From contig CANCMG010000004.1 in assembly GCA_947378965.1 (NCBI GenBank), positions 42,324-106,323 of the forward strand: a stretch of DNA of 64,000 nucleotides, written 5' to 3'. The position numbers were made by a program, and so were the translations under genes. The DNA comes from Alcaligenaceae bacterium (lineage in GTDB: Bacteria; Pseudomonadota; Gammaproteobacteria; Burkholderiales; Burkholderiaceae_B). The notes under the pieces were generated by a model. It saw only the letters and a list, made by a program, of their open reading frames with translations, did no database searches and was not told the origin of the DNA. Shown here in pieces: positions 52,606-59,459 of the stretch (positions within the stretch are counted from its first letter, which is position 1; the number at the start of each line of letters is the position of its first letter).

Positions 52606-53361
52606 ATGAGTCAGCCCCTTCTTGGCAAAGTTGCCCTTGTGACCGGCGCCGCTCGCGGCATCGGCCGTGCCTGCGCGTTGAAACTGGCCTCTGCTGGCTG
52701 CGACATCGTTGCTAATTATTACAACAGCTTTGACGAGGCTGAGGCCGTTTGCGCTGAAGTGCGGGCGATGGGCCGTCGTGCGATTGCGGTACAAGCCAGT
52801 GTCGGCGTGCCCGACAGCGTGGTCGAGCTGTTTGAGGTCATTACCAAAGAATTTGGCCAACTGGATATTGTGATCAGTAACGCGGCCTCGGGTGTCCTGA
52901 AGCCCGCCATGGAAATGAGTCTGAAGCATTTTCGCTGGTGTCTTGAAACTAACGCCTTCGCAGTCAATTTGTTGGCACAACAGGCTTTGCCTTTAATGAA
53001 ACATGGCGGTCGCATTGTGGCCATGTCTAGTTTGGGCGCCCAGCGTGCCATGCCTCATTATGGGTTTATCGGCGCTTCAAAGGCAGCCCTTGAGGCTTTA
53101 GTGCGCACGTTAGCGCAAGAGCTCGGCCCGCAGGGGATTCGGGTCAATACAGTTTCGGCTGGTGTCGTGGATACCGACGCGCTGAGTCACTTTCCAAATC
53201 GCGAGCAGGTCTTGTCTGAATTTGCTGCACGTACGCCGGCGGGCCCTAGTTTGCTACCCACCAACGTTGCCGATGCCGTTTACCTGTTGTGTTTGCCAGA
53301 GGCCGCATGGATCAATGGCCACACCCTAGTGGTGGATGGCGGTTTTTCAATTTCAGGGTGA
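52606..53361 (+). CDS. SDR family oxidoreductase (FabG/FabI/FabL-like)
   Basis: VALVTGAARGIGRACALKLASAG (TGxxxGIG), S...YGFIGASKAALEALVRTLAQELGPQGIRVNTVSAG; ATG 52606. Confidence 0.92.
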   Translation: MSQPLLGKVALVTGAARGIGRACALKLASAGCDIVANYYNSFDEAEAVCAEVRAMGRRAIAVQASVGVPDSVVELFEVITKEFGQLDIVISNAASGVLKPAMEMSLKHFRWCLETNAFAVNLLAQQALPLMKHGGRIVAMSSLGAQRAMPHYGFIGASKAALEALVRTLAQELGPQGIRVNTVSAGVVDTDALSHFPNREQVLSEFAARTPAGPSLLPTNVADAVYLLCLPEAAWINGHTLVVDGGFSISG

Positions 53362-53366
53362 ACACC

Positions 53367-54125
53367 ATGAGCTTTGAGTCAGGTTTGGCGGGTAAAGTTG
53401 CGATTGTGACGGGTGGCTCGCGCGGGATTGGGCGTGCCATTGTCGAGTGTCTGGCGGCGCAAGGCGTTAACGTCAATTTTTTCTATCGTGGTAACGAGGC
53501 CGCAGCGCTTGAGGTTGTGGCTAGCGTCACGGCTACAGGCGGTAAAGCGACAGCCCTGCAAGTCGACGTCAGTGATTCGGCTGCCTGTATCGAGGCTGTG
53601 AACGCGGTGGCCGATCGTTGTGAACGCATCGATATCTTGGTCAATAACGCGGGTATCGTGCGCGACAACCTGATGGCTGTTATGGAAGACACCGAGATCT
53701 CAGAGGTGCTCGAAACCAATATTGGCGGTGTCTTCAATGTGACCCGCCCGGTGATCCCCTTCATGATGTCTCAGCGTGCGGGCCGCATCGTCAACTTGTC
53801 GTCCGTAGCGGGCAATAAGGCGGGGCGTGGGCAGGCGAATTACGCCGCCAGTAAAGGTGCGGTCGACGCCGTCACCCGAGCTTTAGCCGTTGAGCTAGCG
53901 TCGCGCAAAATTCTGGTCAATGCGGTGGCACCAGGGGTGATTGATACTGAAATGTCGCAGCAAGTGCGTGATCTTGCCGATGATGAAGTGAAAAATAAAA
54001 TATTACTTAAGCGCTATGGTCAGGCCCAAGAAGTCGCCAACGTGGTGGCCTTTTTGGTCTCAGATATGGCCAGTTATGTCACCGGTCAGGTTCTCTATGT
54101 TGATGGCGGCTTTAAGATGGCCTGA
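53367..54125 (+). CDS. fabG: 3-oxoacyl-ACP reductase FabG-like
   Basis: VAIVTGGSRGIGRAIVECLAAQG, NNAGIVRDNLMAVMEDTEISEVLETNIGGVFNVTRP, YAASKGAVDAVTRALAVELA. Confidence 0.93.
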   Translation: MSFESGLAGKVAIVTGGSRGIGRAIVECLAAQGVNVNFFYRGNEAAALEVVASVTATGGKATALQVDVSDSAACIEAVNAVADRCERIDILVNNAGIVRDNLMAVMEDTEISEVLETNIGGVFNVTRPVIPFMMSQRAGRIVNLSSVAGNKAGRGQANYAASKGAVDAVTRALAVELASRKILVNAVAPGVIDTEMSQQVRDLADDEVKNKILLKRYGQAQEVANVVAFLVSDMASYVTGQVLYVDGGFKMA

Positions 54126-54227: not shown

Positions 54228-54656
54228 ATGGCTGAAGCAGTCATCTCGAAAGAAGAAATTATGGCGGTGTTTCCAACCGTCCAAAAAACGATGGCAGATG
54301 CCCTCGGTTGCGATGTAGATGACATCAAGCTTGATGTGTCCTTGATCGAGGGTCTTGATGCCGAATCGATCGATTTCCTTGATATGGTGTTTCGCCTTGA
54401 GCGCGCCTTTAAAATCAAGGTGCCACGCGGCAAAATTATCGAAGACGTGCGCGGCGACATGCCCGTGACAGATTTCGAACAAGGCGGCGTCCTGACAGAC
54501 AAAGGTGTGGCGCGCTTACGTGAATATTTGTCTGAAATCGACGAATCACGTTTTAAGTTGCCAATGCGCGTAGATCACATCGCGCGGTTGTATACGCCCG
54601 AAACTTTCTGCAAGCTCGTGATTCGTGCTCAGCGCGCTTCACAAGCCGCTGGCTGA
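54228..54656 (+). CDS. Acyl carrier protein with C-terminal extension
   Basis: LDVSLIEGLDAESIDFLDMVFRLERAFKIKVPRG (phosphopantetheine Ser in ESI); 142 aa, longer than canonical ACP. Confidence 0.88.
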   Translation: MAEAVISKEEIMAVFPTVQKTMADALGCDVDDIKLDVSLIEGLDAESIDFLDMVFRLERAFKIKVPRGKIIEDVRGDMPVTDFEQGGVLTDKGVARLREYLSEIDESRFKLPMRVDHIARLYTPETFCKLVIRAQRASQAAG

Positions 54657-55537
54657 TGGTCTTGAGTGCGGCGCGGGCCACTGCCCCCGCGCCAACCGGT
54701 CGCTTTGCTGCATTTTCCTTTGTCGATCAGATCACTCAAATCCAAGGGGTCACACGCGTGTGCGGCCTCTACACAATCCCTGCCAATATTGAGCATTTTC
54801 CAGCCAGTTTAGTGGCCGAGGCGCTAGGGCAGTTGGCTGCGTGGGTGGCGATGTCGACGCTCGGTTTCAGTCACCGCCCAGTCGCTGCGTTAGCGGGCGA
54901 CACAAAGATTTTTTCGCTGCCCAAGCCTGGGGATACGCTTGAACTCATCGTTGACATCGAATCCTGCGATGCCGAGTCGATCTTGTATCGTGGCCATGCC
55001 TTGGTCAATGGCTCTACCGTGCTTGAACTCGCTGATACCGTGGGGTCAATGCTCGACATTCAAGAGTTTGACGATCCGGCAGCTTTAGCGGCAGACTTTG
55101 CCCAGTTGAGTGCCGGCGGTCGTGCCGTGGGGGCGTTTCAGGGCGTTCCCCAGCCGTCTTTGCTCGACGTGCCAGCATCCGCCCCAGAGCAGCTTCAGGC
55201 GCAGTTGATGGTGCCTGCAAAGGCCGATTTTTTTGACGATCATTTTCCACGTAGACCGGTGTTTCCGGCAACCTTGTTACTCGATGCGCTGTTGCGATTG
55301 GCAAGCCGCGTGGCTGTGCGGGCCGCTGGCGGCACAATGCTGCGGCTCACACGTATCACCAATGTCAAAGTGCGCGCCTTTACTGCACCAGGGGCCACGC
55401 TGTTGCTGTCGGCCCAACTCGCAGCGCCCGGCGCAGACGACCTCGAACCCTATATGGTCAAGCTGACCGCTCAGGCCGAAGGTAAAACCATTGCAAGCGC
55501 CAAAATGTATTTCGCGCTTGCCGGAGAAACTGCATGA
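54656..55537 (+). CDS. Tandem hotdog-fold dehydratase (FabZ/FabA-like)
   Basis: First domain EHFPASLVAEALGQLAAW; second domain ADFFDDHFPRRPVFPATLLLDALLRLAS; ATG overlaps ACP stop. Confidence 0.82.
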   Translation: MVLSAARATAPAPTGRFAAFSFVDQITQIQGVTRVCGLYTIPANIEHFPASLVAEALGQLAAWVAMSTLGFSHRPVAALAGDTKIFSLPKPGDTLELIVDIESCDAESILYRGHALVNGSTVLELADTVGSMLDIQEFDDPAALAADFAQLSAGGRAVGAFQGVPQPSLLDVPASAPEQLQAQLMVPAKADFFDDHFPRRPVFPATLLLDALLRLASRVAVRAAGGTMLRLTRITNVKVRAFTAPGATLLLSAQLAAPGADDLEPYMVKLTAQAEGKTIASAKMYFALAGETA

Positions 55538-56847
55538 CCACACGACGTCGCGTTGCGATTACAGGTATCGGCCTGGTGACCCCGGCTGGCCTCGATGCTG
55601 CCTCAACCTGGGCGCGGATTAAAGCGGCTCGCAGTTGTGCCGGGCCGATTACGATTTTTGACGCCTCTGGGTTTTCGACCCGTATCGCCGCTGAGGTCAA
55701 AGGCTTTGACGATTTGCCCCCGATTGACGATCGTAAGTTGCTTAAGTATGCAAGCCGCGCACACCGGTTTGCGTTGGCCGCTGCCGACCAGGCGATCGCT
55801 GACGCCGGCGTGCGTCCTACCTTTCAAGATGCAACGCGTTGGGGCTGCGTAGTGGGGGCGGGCATGATGACGGTGGCTCATCAAGAAATTGCAGCCGTAC
55901 AAAGTACTGCTGCCCCGGACGGCGAATTTGTCGCAAAGGCCTTGCTCAATGAACCGATTGCCAACGATGTGATGGCCTTTAGCCGTAGCTTGTCTACAGC
56001 CGGCATTTCTTTGTTGTTACGCCGGTTTGGGATACGAGGTTACGCCTCGACCGTCCATACTGCGTGTGCTTCGGGCGGTCAGGCAATCGGTACCGCCATG
56101 CGATTAATTCGGCGTGGGTTGGCCGACCGAGTCTTGACTGGCGGTTTTGATTCAATGATTTCGCCGGTTGGGCTTTCGGGCTTTTGTTTGCTGTCTGCGG
56201 TATCGCCCGATAACGATCAGCCCGAGCGCGCTAGTCGCCCGTTTGATTTGACCCGAAACGGTTTTGTGTTGGGCGAGGGCGCTGGGTTTTTAGTCCTCGA
56301 AGAATGGAACTCAGCCGTACAACGCGGCGCGACTATTTACGCTGAGCTTGCTGGCGACGGTAACTCTCTGTCGTCGTATCGCATCACCGACTCCCATCCC
56401 TCTGGCGACGGGCCAATCCAATCAATGCGTCGAGCAATTGCCGATGCAGGCGCGGGCATCGCCGATATCGATTATCTCAACGCTCACGGCACCTCTACCC
56501 CCATGAATGACCGCAGTGAGTGCGCTGCAGTCAAAGCAGTGTTTGGCGATCGGGTCAACGAAGTCGGTGTGAGCTCAACTAAAAGCGTGACGGGTCATCT
56601 GATTGCTGCAGCGGGTGCGGTCGAAGCGGGGTTGTGCGCCTTGGCCATTCGCGAAAGCTTGATGCCACCGAATGCTAATTTGCAGCAACTTGATCCCGAC
56701 TGTGATGTCAATATCGTGCGCGACCGACCACGTGAGCAGCGCATTGGGATGGCGATTTCAAATTCACTGGGGTTTGGGGGCAGCAATAGTTGCCTGGCTT
56801 TCCGGCACCCCGAAGACACGGCGGCGCTTGTCGCCTCAGGACGGTGA
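55534..56847 (+). CDS. Beta-ketoacyl-ACP synthase (KAS II type, active)
   Basis: ITGIGLVTPAGLDAA; TACASGGQAIG with catalytic Cys (codon 56065-56067); NAHGTSTPMND; KSVTGHLIAAAG. Confidence 0.93.
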   Translation: MTTRRRVAITGIGLVTPAGLDAASTWARIKAARSCAGPITIFDASGFSTRIAAEVKGFDDLPPIDDRKLLKYASRAHRFALAAADQAIADAGVRPTFQDATRWGCVVGAGMMTVAHQEIAAVQSTAAPDGEFVAKALLNEPIANDVMAFSRSLSTAGISLLLRRFGIRGYASTVHTACASGGQAIGTAMRLIRRGLADRVLTGGFDSMISPVGLSGFCLLSAVSPDNDQPERASRPFDLTRNGFVLGEGAGFLVLEEWNSAVQRGATIYAELAGDGNSLSSYRITDSHPSGDGPIQSMRRAIADAGAGIADIDYLNAHGTSTPMNDRSECAAVKAVFGDRVNEVGVSSTKSVTGHLIAAAGAVEAGLCALAIRESLMPPNANLQQLDPDCDVNIVRDRPREQRIGMAISNSLGFGGSNSCLAFRHPEDTAALVASGR

Positions 56848-56852
56848 GCACC

Positions 56853-58124
56853 ATGAGCCGAATCGTAATTACAGGAAATGGTGCGATCTGCGGTGCTGGC
56901 ACTGCTCCAGGCAGTATCGTTGAGACGTTGTTGGCGGGTCGCTCTGCCATCGCGCCAATCACGAGCTTCGAGGCCGAACAATTTCAAGGCGGCTTGGCTG
57001 CTGAGGTGCCTGACTACAACGGCGGCAAGCTACTAGGCGATCGCAAGTTGCTTAAGTTAGTACGACGTTCTGATGTCTTTGGCATCTATGCGGGCACTCA
57101 GGCGATTGAACAAGCGGGCTTACCGGCTTGGCGTGCGGCGCTCGATGAAACCGCAGCCGCGCACTATGCAGATCACACTGGGTGTTATGTGGGCTCAGGC
57201 GGAGGCGCCTTCGAGGTCAATTACGACTTTTTTCCGCTGATGGCCGAAACCAAAAATGATCTGAATGGGTTTGGTCGTGAATTGTCCAACATGGTCAACC
57301 CGATGTGGTTGCTCAAGTCATTACCCAATAACGTGTTGTGCCATATTAGTATCCGCCATCAACTCAAAGGGCCAAATGGTTGCATTACTAACCACACCTC
57401 AAGTGGCATTTTGTCGGTGATTGAAAGTGCTTGGGCCTTGCGTGAGGGGGATGCCGAGCGCGTTGTGGCAGTCGGTCACGATGCCCCGATTGAGCCGCAA
57501 ACCTTGTTATATCTTGATCGAGTTGGTTTGATTGGCAAAGACCTGCTGCGACCCTTTGATCAGCGGCACGACGGTTGTTTGTTGGGCGAAGGCGCTGCGG
57601 CGCTGGTGCTCGAAACCGAGGCCTCAGCGCGTGAGCGCGGTGCGACGATATTGGGCGAGTATCTGGGTGGTGGCGATGCCGCTGAGGGCGAGGGCTTGTT
57701 TAGCATTCGCTCGGATGGCGACGGGTTGAGTCGTGCCATTGAATTGGCGCTAGACGATGCAAAGCTCAAACCCGCGGATGTTGGCATGATTGTGGCGCAT
57801 GGCAACGGGACGCAAGAATCTGATGCGTCAGAAACGGCGGCCTTAGTGAAGGTGTTTGGTGCGGATATGCCACCCGTGACTGGTTTTAAGTGGTCGGTCG
57901 GGCATCTTTTTGCGGCCGCAGGGATGTTGGATGTTGCAGTCGGGCTCGAGGCTTGCCGGCGTAAGGTGGTGCCGGGGATTGCCAATCTTGAGCACCTTGC
58001 CGAGTCATGCAAGGGGCTCAATGTGTCGAAGCAGACGCGCGCGTCACGTAGTGATGTCGTACTGGTGGTATGCCGTGGCTTTGCAGGCACCAACGGTGCG
58101 TTGTTGCTGCGCGCGATTCAATAG
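56853..58124 (+). CDS. Beta-ketoacyl synthase homologue lacking active-site Cys (chain-length-factor-like)
   Basis: KS fold; GPNGCITNHTSSGILSVIESA where xACAxG is expected (Thr at the Cys position, 57396-57398); VAHGNGTQ and KWSVGHLFAAAG retained. Confidence 0.88.
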   Translation: MSRIVITGNGAICGAGTAPGSIVETLLAGRSAIAPITSFEAEQFQGGLAAEVPDYNGGKLLGDRKLLKLVRRSDVFGIYAGTQAIEQAGLPAWRAALDETAAAHYADHTGCYVGSGGGAFEVNYDFFPLMAETKNDLNGFGRELSNMVNPMWLLKSLPNNVLCHISIRHQLKGPNGCITNHTSSGILSVIESAWALREGDAERVVAVGHDAPIEPQTLLYLDRVGLIGKDLLRPFDQRHDGCLLGEGAAALVLETEASARERGATILGEYLGGGDAAEGEGLFSIRSDGDGLSRAIELALDDAKLKPADVGMIVAHGNGTQESDASETAALVKVFGADMPPVTGFKWSVGHLFAAAGMLDVAVGLEACRRKVVPGIANLEHLAESCKGLNVSKQTRASRSDVVLVVCRGFAGTNGALLLRAIQ

Positions 58125-58125
58125 A

Positions 58126-59364
58126 GTGGATGCCTCGACTGTTCAGCAGGACTCGTTGCCCGATGGCTGCGCAGTCGATACGGTCGAAATTGCTCGTATT
58201 GCCCGCTTGGTTGAAGCCTTGCCGGGCGATCTAGAAAAGTTGTTTTCTGCCCAAGAGCTAACTGATGCCGGCGAGGGTGCAGGGCGCATCGCCAGTCTTG
58301 CGGCACGCTTTGCTGCTAAAGAGGCTTGTTTAAAACTTTTTCCCAGAGAGACTGCACTCAATACCATCACGGCCATGGATTTTTCGGTCGTGCGTGATGC
58401 CTATGGCGCACCGCAGGTGGTTGCCAGCGCTGCAGCGCAAATCGTATTGGGACTGCATTTAGTCGCCAGTATAAAGTTGTCTCTCACGCATACGCCCCTG
58501 TCGGCGACGGCAGTCGCGCTGCGAGTGCCTAAGGTCATTGAGCCAAGCCGCGGAGGGCGGTTTTTGTATCGCTGGCTGCCTTATCGCCGTCAGATCATTT
58601 TGGACAACTTAACTCGCGTGTATGGGGCGCAAGTGAGTCAGCAGAAAATCCAGTTACTTGCGCAGGCGCATTACGGACATCTGCTCAAGTTGCTAAAAGA
58701 ATTGTTGCAATTTAGGTTTTTGTCGGTGCAACAAAAAAAGGATATTGTCAAAGTCGAAGGTGTGCCCGAGATGATCAAGGCCTTCGAGGCGGGCAAGGGT
58801 GTGCTGATTTTGACCGGCCACTTCGGTAATTTTGAAGTCTCGACCATTGCCGGAATTGAACACTTTCCCCAAGTGAAGGGACGTATTCATTTTTTGCGTC
58901 GTCCGATTAAGCCTAAATGGTTGAGCGACTTGTTGACCCGCCGTTTTAATCAGGCCGGCTTTGGCGTGGTGGGGCGTCGCGGTTCACTTGAAGAGATTGT
59001 TGAGACACTTGAGCGCGGAGATGCGATCGTGTTTCCGTTTGATCAATACGCCAGGCGACCAGAAGGCATTGAAGTCGAGTTTTTTGGCTACGCTGCAGGC
59101 ACTTACAAAAGTATGGCCTTAATCGCCTTGGCGACCGGTGCGCCCGTGTTGCCGGCCGCCTCATGGCGTGAGCCCGACGGCACCCACGTATTACAGTTTT
59201 TACCTCCACTCAGCCCCATCGTTGATGAGGATGTCGGCGCCGAAATCAAGCGCAATACGCGTGCGTTCAATCAGGCACTTGAGTTGGCAATTGTGAGGCA
59301 TCCAGAGCAATGGTGGTGGGTACATCGGCGCTGGAAAAATCAACCCAAGCTGCAAGACAGCTAG
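58126..59364 (+). CDS. Predicted holo-ACP synthase (AcpS)-LpxL-type lysophospholipid acyltransferase fusion, GTG start
   Basis: N-terminal GCAVDTVEIARIARLVEAL...RIASLAARFAAKEACLKLF...IKLSLTHTPLSATAVAL (AcpS); C-terminal LTGHFGNFEVSTIAG (HX4E) and LERGDAIVFPFDQYARRPEGIEVEFFG (LpxL/HtrB). No stop codon between. Confidence 0.85.
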   Translation: MDASTVQQDSLPDGCAVDTVEIARIARLVEALPGDLEKLFSAQELTDAGEGAGRIASLAARFAAKEACLKLFPRETALNTITAMDFSVVRDAYGAPQVVASAAAQIVLGLHLVASIKLSLTHTPLSATAVALRVPKVIEPSRGGRFLYRWLPYRRQIILDNLTRVYGAQVSQQKIQLLAQAHYGHLLKLLKELLQFRFLSVQQKKDIVKVEGVPEMIKAFEAGKGVLILTGHFGNFEVSTIAGIEHFPQVKGRIHFLRRPIKPKWLSDLLTRRFNQAGFGVVGRRGSLEEIVETLERGDAIVFPFDQYARRPEGIEVEFFGYAAGTYKSMALIALATGAPVLPAASWREPDGTHVLQFLPPLSPIVDEDVGAEIKRNTRAFNQALELAIVRHPEQWWWVHRRWKNQPKLQDS

Positions 59365-59428: not shown

Positions 59429-59459
59429 CCGGCTACGCGTAGTTTGTTTGCGTAGCCGG
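59429..59459. other. Inverted repeat between convergent genes (possible transcription-end hairpin)
   Basis: CCGGCTACGC ... GCGTAGCCGG perfect 10-bp stem, no T tract. Confidence 0.45.

Follow-up and report, generated by a model that had tools for sequence, protein, structure and literature searches.

Gene cluster and architecture of the fused gene

The window (i.e., the whole 64,000-nt stretch of DNA that was analyzed) contains a cluster of seven genes on the same strand, encoding, in this order, a FabL-type enoyl reductase, FabG, a long acyl carrier protein (ACP), a double-hotdog dehydratase, two ketosynthases (KS1 and KS2), and a protein in which a holo-ACP synthase (AcpS) is fused to an LpxL/HtrB-type acyltransferase (LPLAT) (Table 1). 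The reductive cycle is complete in this cluster, which includes no thioesterase gene. The same gene order was found at every fused copy whose contig is long enough, with the fused gene always in the last position; the genes flanking the seven differ between lineages, as expected for a laterally mobile unit.

Table 1. Genes of the cluster and domains of the fused protein (positions in the window)
Feature	Position	Strand	Basis
FabL-type enoyl-ACP reductase, Y-x6-K	52606..53361	+	NF005975, 338.8 bits (cut-off 328)
FabG-type 3-oxoacyl reductase, Y-x3-K	53361..54125 (translated stretch)	+	Profiles, motif
ACP, 142 aa, DAES47IDFLD	54228..54656	+	PF00550; Ser invariant
Double-hotdog FabZ/FabA-like dehydratase, 293 aa	54656..55537	+	PF07977 in two stretches; motifs kept
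KS1, FabF-like ketosynthase, Cys-His-His	55534..56847	+	Profile matches, residues
KS2, chain-length-factor-like ketosynthase, Cys replaced by Thr, both His kept	56850..58124	+	Profiles, residues
AcpS-LPLAT fusion gene, 412 aa (412 codons)	58126..59364	+	GTG 58126 to TAG 59364
AcpS domain (group I phosphopantetheinyl transferase), residues 15-132	58168..58521	+	PF01648, TIGR00556, residue conservation, Foldseek
Linker, ~12 residues, 133-144	58522..58557	+	Junction alignment
LpxL/HtrB-type acyltransferase domain, residues 142-404	58549..59337	+	PF03279, H232/E237 invariance, Foldseek

The Y-x6-K motif of the enoyl reductase is conserved among the cluster relatives. The active-site Cys of KS2 is replaced by Thr, Ser, or Ala in the proteobacterial copies; KS2 is not quite a universally Cys-less chain length factor (CLF), as three Verrucomicrobiota copies (L053, L055, and L056) retain the Cys. 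In G1225, KS2 (L177:2223-3388) is broken by a frame break, which is probably an assembly error of this metagenome-assembled genome (MAG). Past its carrier domain, the cluster ACP continues for another ~70 aa; this conserved C-terminal extension is also found in the Legionella and Verrucomicrobiota copies.

The initial annotation had described the fused gene as one uninterrupted frame, and we confirmed a single open frame from the GTG to the TAG codon, encoding a protein that contains all of the AcpS and LPLAT motifs quoted previously. The start codon is uncertain, with the GTG located 1 nt past an upstream stop and an alternative TTG present at codon 11. Both halves scored above the curated cut-offs in a profile search of the protein, i.e., Pfam ACPS (PF01648; residues 15-99, E 3.3e-6, 27.5 bits vs. 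a cut-off of 25) and Lip_A_acyltrans (PF03279; residues 142-404, E 4.2e-34, 118.5 bits vs. a cut-off of 22.3); the latter match begins at profile position 40 of 295, bearing out the earlier remark that the LPLAT part lacks its usual N-terminus. While the AcpS half also passed the NCBIfam model pantethn_trn (TIGR00556; 48.9 vs. a cut-off of 45.35), it did not reach the acpS equivalog domain (TIGR00516; 35.1 vs. 59.8), and the LPLAT half missed all NCBIfam LpxL equivalog cut-offs (e.g., 80.6 vs. 297.8 for TIGR02207).

The AcpS domain includes the residues D18, E44, E66, K70, and H122, and the HX4E motif of the LPLAT domain corresponds to H232-E237. D18, E66, K70, and H122, as well as H232 and E237, are invariant among 11 aligned fusions, and D18, E66, and K70 are nearly invariant in a wider alignment that includes free AcpS proteins; the catalytic residues of both halves are kept in nearly all fused relatives, the exception being G446 (see below). 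The linker presents a near-constant length of ~12 residues and is stop-free in 30 of the 30 fused sequences of the junction alignment. In both domains, dN is far below dS, reflecting purifying selection. A perfect 10-bp inverted repeat is located ~65 bases past the stop codon of the fused gene, at window positions 59429..59459 (CCGGCTACGC / GCGTAGCCGG), with no T run on the + strand; this inverted repeat may represent a terminator or a small repeat.

An AlphaFold model, built as a single chain with the window protein and 26 relatives as input, presented two intact folds (mean pLDDT 91.5, pTM 0.88), with residues 1-9 alone poorly placed or disordered. Foldseek comparison with the PDB matched the N-terminal half with many AcpS structures and the C-terminal half with PatA and LpxM, and phmmer gave the same division, with AcpS chains matching the first half and PatA and LpxM chains the second; no single PDB chain spanned both halves among the phmmer and Foldseek matches listed. 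Foldseek also matched structures of the phosphopantetheinyl transferase (PPTase) domain of fungal type I fatty acid synthases (FAS). The AcpS-LPLAT fusion is real, and its tie to the ACP cluster, as put forward in the initial annotation, is well supported.

Distribution and origin of the fusion

A full-length uninterrupted fusion was found in 28 of the 31 genomes from the same genus (75-92% identity); of the remaining three, two carry the fusion as fragments spread over different contigs and one (G023) is without it. Sampling of the order Burkholderiales (398 genomes drawn) revealed the fusion in five genomes besides the window's own, and sampling of the class (369 genomes) revealed one further fused copy, in a genome of another order, as well as six LPLAT-only matches, one of them truncated by a contig end; 398 other genomes from the phylum yielded zero matches. 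Screening 85,462 species genomes identified further Burkholderiales and Verrucomicrobiota MAGs, and a plasmid search found no full-length relative. Altogether, at least six Verrucomicrobiota MAGs carry the full-length fusion. Most relatives are MAGs; one locus labelled as unfused in one tree (L046, from G455) is on a contig that starts inside the LPLAT part. Within the Verrucomicrobiota order that includes L055, the cluster is present in 7 of 196 genomes (fused in five of these seven) and represents one clade, which makes it unlikely that the Verrucomicrobiota copies are mis-binned contigs. Overall, the fusion persists across families and phyla at identities down to ~52%.

As the source assembly is a draft (189 contigs), a sequencing error or mis-assembly that joined two genes might be suspected, and the initial annotation had called for a check for a missed frameshift near 58540. 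The full-length frame in the 28 same-genus genomes and in other families and phyla excludes such a frameshift, and the presence of the same open frame in dozens of independently assembled genomes refutes a merging error, which we regard as virtually impossible; this sharing of the frame also rules out its origin by chance. Sequencing error and chance are thus both excluded, because the frame is open across genus, families, and phyla and because dN is far below dS.

All 20 fused domains fall into a single clade of the AcpS tree (99/79), and the fused domains and the G531 protein together split from all other AcpS (99/98); the genomes' own separate AcpS genes group apart from the fused ones (100/98), ruling out that the fused AcpS was copied from the host's own acpS. 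According to the trees, the fusion arose once. The nearest unfused relative of the fused AcpS is the stand-alone AcpS of G531, where separate AcpS and LPLAT genes are adjacent and overlap by ATGA, an arrangement that would be expected just before fusion. In a tree based on KS1, KS2, and LPLAT, the Legionella-type unfused clusters are apart from the Burkholderiales-Verrucomicrobiota group (100/100), and two AcpS-less Verrucomicrobiota clusters are nested among the fused ones; L045 and L039 represent long branches whose exact placement is unsure. The LPLAT of these two AcpS-less Verrucomicrobiota starts exactly at the position that corresponds to the end of the linker of fused copies, indicating that the AcpS part was removed there. 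Several Legionella-type genomes present a cluster without AcpS. In the G446 fusion (L039:10248-11459), the frame is still joined, the catalytic Glu is replaced by Arg, and Pfam ACPS no longer matches; this degenerate AcpS domain is possibly a pseudo-enzyme. As AcpS is missing or degraded in some clusters, the cluster works without it; its removal in two Verrucomicrobiota and its degeneration in G446 indicate that the AcpS domain is useful but dispensable. While AcpS removal was observed, no fused gene was seen split back into two genes.

The host genome also carries its own AcpS as well as an Sfp-type enzyme, suggesting that the fused AcpS is an extra, dedicated copy, and another PPTase is present in every fusion-bearing host examined. 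Restriction of the fusion to cells with a narrow AcpS and no Sfp-type enzyme was considered and rejected, as G350 and G429 have an Sfp-type enzyme only. Two further LpxL-type acyltransferases, both with normal N-terminal hydrophobic segments, are also encoded in the host genome, and the LPLAT clade of the fusion is separate from these two proteins. The N-terminal hydrophobic peak is absent in fused as well as unfused members of the fusion's LPLAT clade; the idea that fusion caused the loss of the membrane segment was therefore rejected.

Comparison with known clusters and enzymes

The window cluster is similar to the rhizobial acpXL-fabZXL-fabF1XL-fabF2XL-(adhA2XL)-lpxXL cluster, which makes a very long fatty acid that is put on lipid A, in that it brings together an ACP, a dehydratase, two ketosynthases, and an LpxL-type acyltransferase (PMC5613085). 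It differs from the rhizobial cluster by the addition of FabG, a FabL-type enoyl reductase, and an AcpS fused to the acyltransferase, as well as by its CLF-like second ketosynthase, 142-aa ACP, and double-hotdog dehydratase. The window proteins also scored below the cut-offs of NCBIfam PRK06508 (35.6 vs. 83 bits), PRK06501 (315 vs. 629 bits), PRK06333 (338 vs. 525 bits), and PRK06553 (102 vs. 273 bits), which we take to be the models of the rhizobial cluster. The best reading of this comparison is that the window cluster would work like the acpXL-lpxXL system while representing a separate family.

Aryl polyene clusters (e.g., apeA-R of E. coli), where a lysophospholipid acyltransferase attaches the product to the outer membrane, share with the window cluster an ACP, a ketosynthase with a chain length factor, a ketoreductase, dehydratases, and an acyltransferase (PMC8253772). 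Unlike these clusters, the window cluster includes an enoyl reductase, pointing to a reduced rather than a polyene product, and is devoid of acyl-ACP synthetase, methyltransferase, thioesterase, and transport/export genes; the E. coli ape cluster, on the other hand, has no PPTase of its own (PMC8253772). The Coxiella CBU_0034-0038 operon was also considered and set apart, by description only, based on its published gene content and order (PMC5423948).

The fused AcpS domain shares its fold and catalytic residues with AcpS holo-ACP synthases, but while the usual AcpS is a free protein of ~125 aa, this domain is N-terminal to an acyltransferase and belongs to a clade apart from the host AcpS. 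Similarly, the LPLAT domain shares its fold and HX4E motif with LpxL/HtrB, LpxM, and PatA, but has no N-terminal membrane segment. As a rule, the enzyme that activates a carrier protein is distinct from the one that off-loads the acyl chain. In fungal type I FAS, a fatty-acid enzyme likewise includes an AcpS-type domain; however, the PPTase domain is there on the synthase itself, whereas here it is on the putative off-loading acyltransferase of a type II system. No description of an AcpS-LPLAT fusion was found among the open-access papers searched, which is weak evidence of absence. Conservation of this fusion across phyla suggests that a dedicated fatty acid pathway has been packaged as a self-sufficient mobile cluster.

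Proposed role of the fused enzyme and its lipid acceptor

Our best reading is that the cluster common to many Burkholderiales and to Verrucomicrobiota represents a dedicated, laterally mobile unit for making fatty acids. We propose, with a probability of roughly 0.6, that the fused protein is the bifunctional last enzyme of this dedicated type II FAS, activating the cluster ACP and moving the product onto an envelope lipid. The AcpS domain would transfer 4′-phosphopantetheine onto Ser47 of the long ACP encoded in the cluster, with CoA as the donor. The acyl chain on this ACP would be extended and fully reduced by the two ketosynthases (KS1 and the CLF-like KS2) together with FabG, the double-hotdog dehydratase, and the FabL-type reductase. 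Finally, the LPLAT domain would take the completed chain off the ACP and attach it to a hydroxyl group on an envelope lipid, with lipid A as the most plausible acceptor. Such a route would require no thioesterase, and the fusion would hold activation and off-loading of one ACP on a single scaffold in a fixed ratio. Given the complete reductive cycle and the absence of a thioesterase from the cluster, activation, elongation with reduction, and ACP-to-lipid transfer represent the simplest route; we infer the two catalytic activities as well as their specificity for the ACP of this cluster, and likewise a saturated (long) product and the acceptor. The initial annotation had likewise suggested that one polypeptide could activate the ACP and use its acyl product, which is consistent with the conserved catalytic residues and the constant neighborhood, and which we also infer; the pairing is not obligatory, as three lineages have cut out or degraded AcpS yet kept the cluster. 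Bacteria with this cluster are predicted to have a long acyl chain in their envelope that is so far unstudied, and relatives with adjacent genes, without AcpS, or with a degenerate AcpS domain provide a natural test of the coupling between priming and transfer.

AcpS binds ACP as its substrate and is a homotrimer with active sites between subunits. The fused AcpS domain could serve mainly for docking or trimerization, keeping the cluster ACP in place for the LPLAT, with phosphopantetheinylation being secondary or performed by other enzymes; besides ACP binding, the other PPTase in every examined host and the retention of the fused domain in G446 despite its Glu to Arg replacement are consistent with such a role. 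However, docking would not need D18, E66, K70, and H122, which are kept in all other aligned fusions, and dN/dS is low across the AcpS domain, making this explanation unlikely. The G531 genes, which are one step from fusion, and the existence of AcpS-less clusters could also suggest that the fusion is a by-product of stop loss between adjacent operon genes, combining two independent activities with no gain; we consider this quite improbable, as the joined state with its short, near-constant linker persists in different families and phyla at identities as low as ~52%, and as the only change seen was AcpS removal and never re-splitting into two genes. Building on the bifunctional reading, one may speculate, tentatively and with clear doubt, that an AcpS trimer displays three acyltransferases and acts as a shuttle station, where the cluster ACP would be primed and then retained or bound again, and where its finished long chain would pass straight onto an envelope lipid, giving rise to an undescribed lipid in Burkholderiales and Verrucomicrobiota that was spread by lateral transfer.

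With regard to the acceptor, both Legionella sp. PATHC038 and G612 have LPLATs of the fusion's clade beside lpxA, lpxD, and lpxB, which suggests lipid A. Acylation of some other component of the envelope (a phospholipid, a glycolipid, or a lipoprotein), in line with what has been proposed for the aryl polyene acyltransferases, is a real possibility even if not the one we favor; the cluster is not adjacent to LPS genes within the 64-kb window (neighbors vary elsewhere), the LPLAT scored under all LpxL equivalog cut-offs, and PatA, which acylates a mannoside, is among its best matches in the PDB, while the lpx-linked LPLATs of Legionella sp. and G612 argue against this alternative. In Legionella sp. 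PATHC038, the unfused cluster itself ends with an LPLAT of the fusion's clade. The LPLATs that adjoin the lpx genes are two tandem copies in both Legionella sp. PATHC038 (L058:5783-11744) and G612 (L043:5770-11824); they are paralogs of the cluster LPLAT, have no N-terminal membrane segment, and are also located beside a heptosyltransferase-family gene in both loci.
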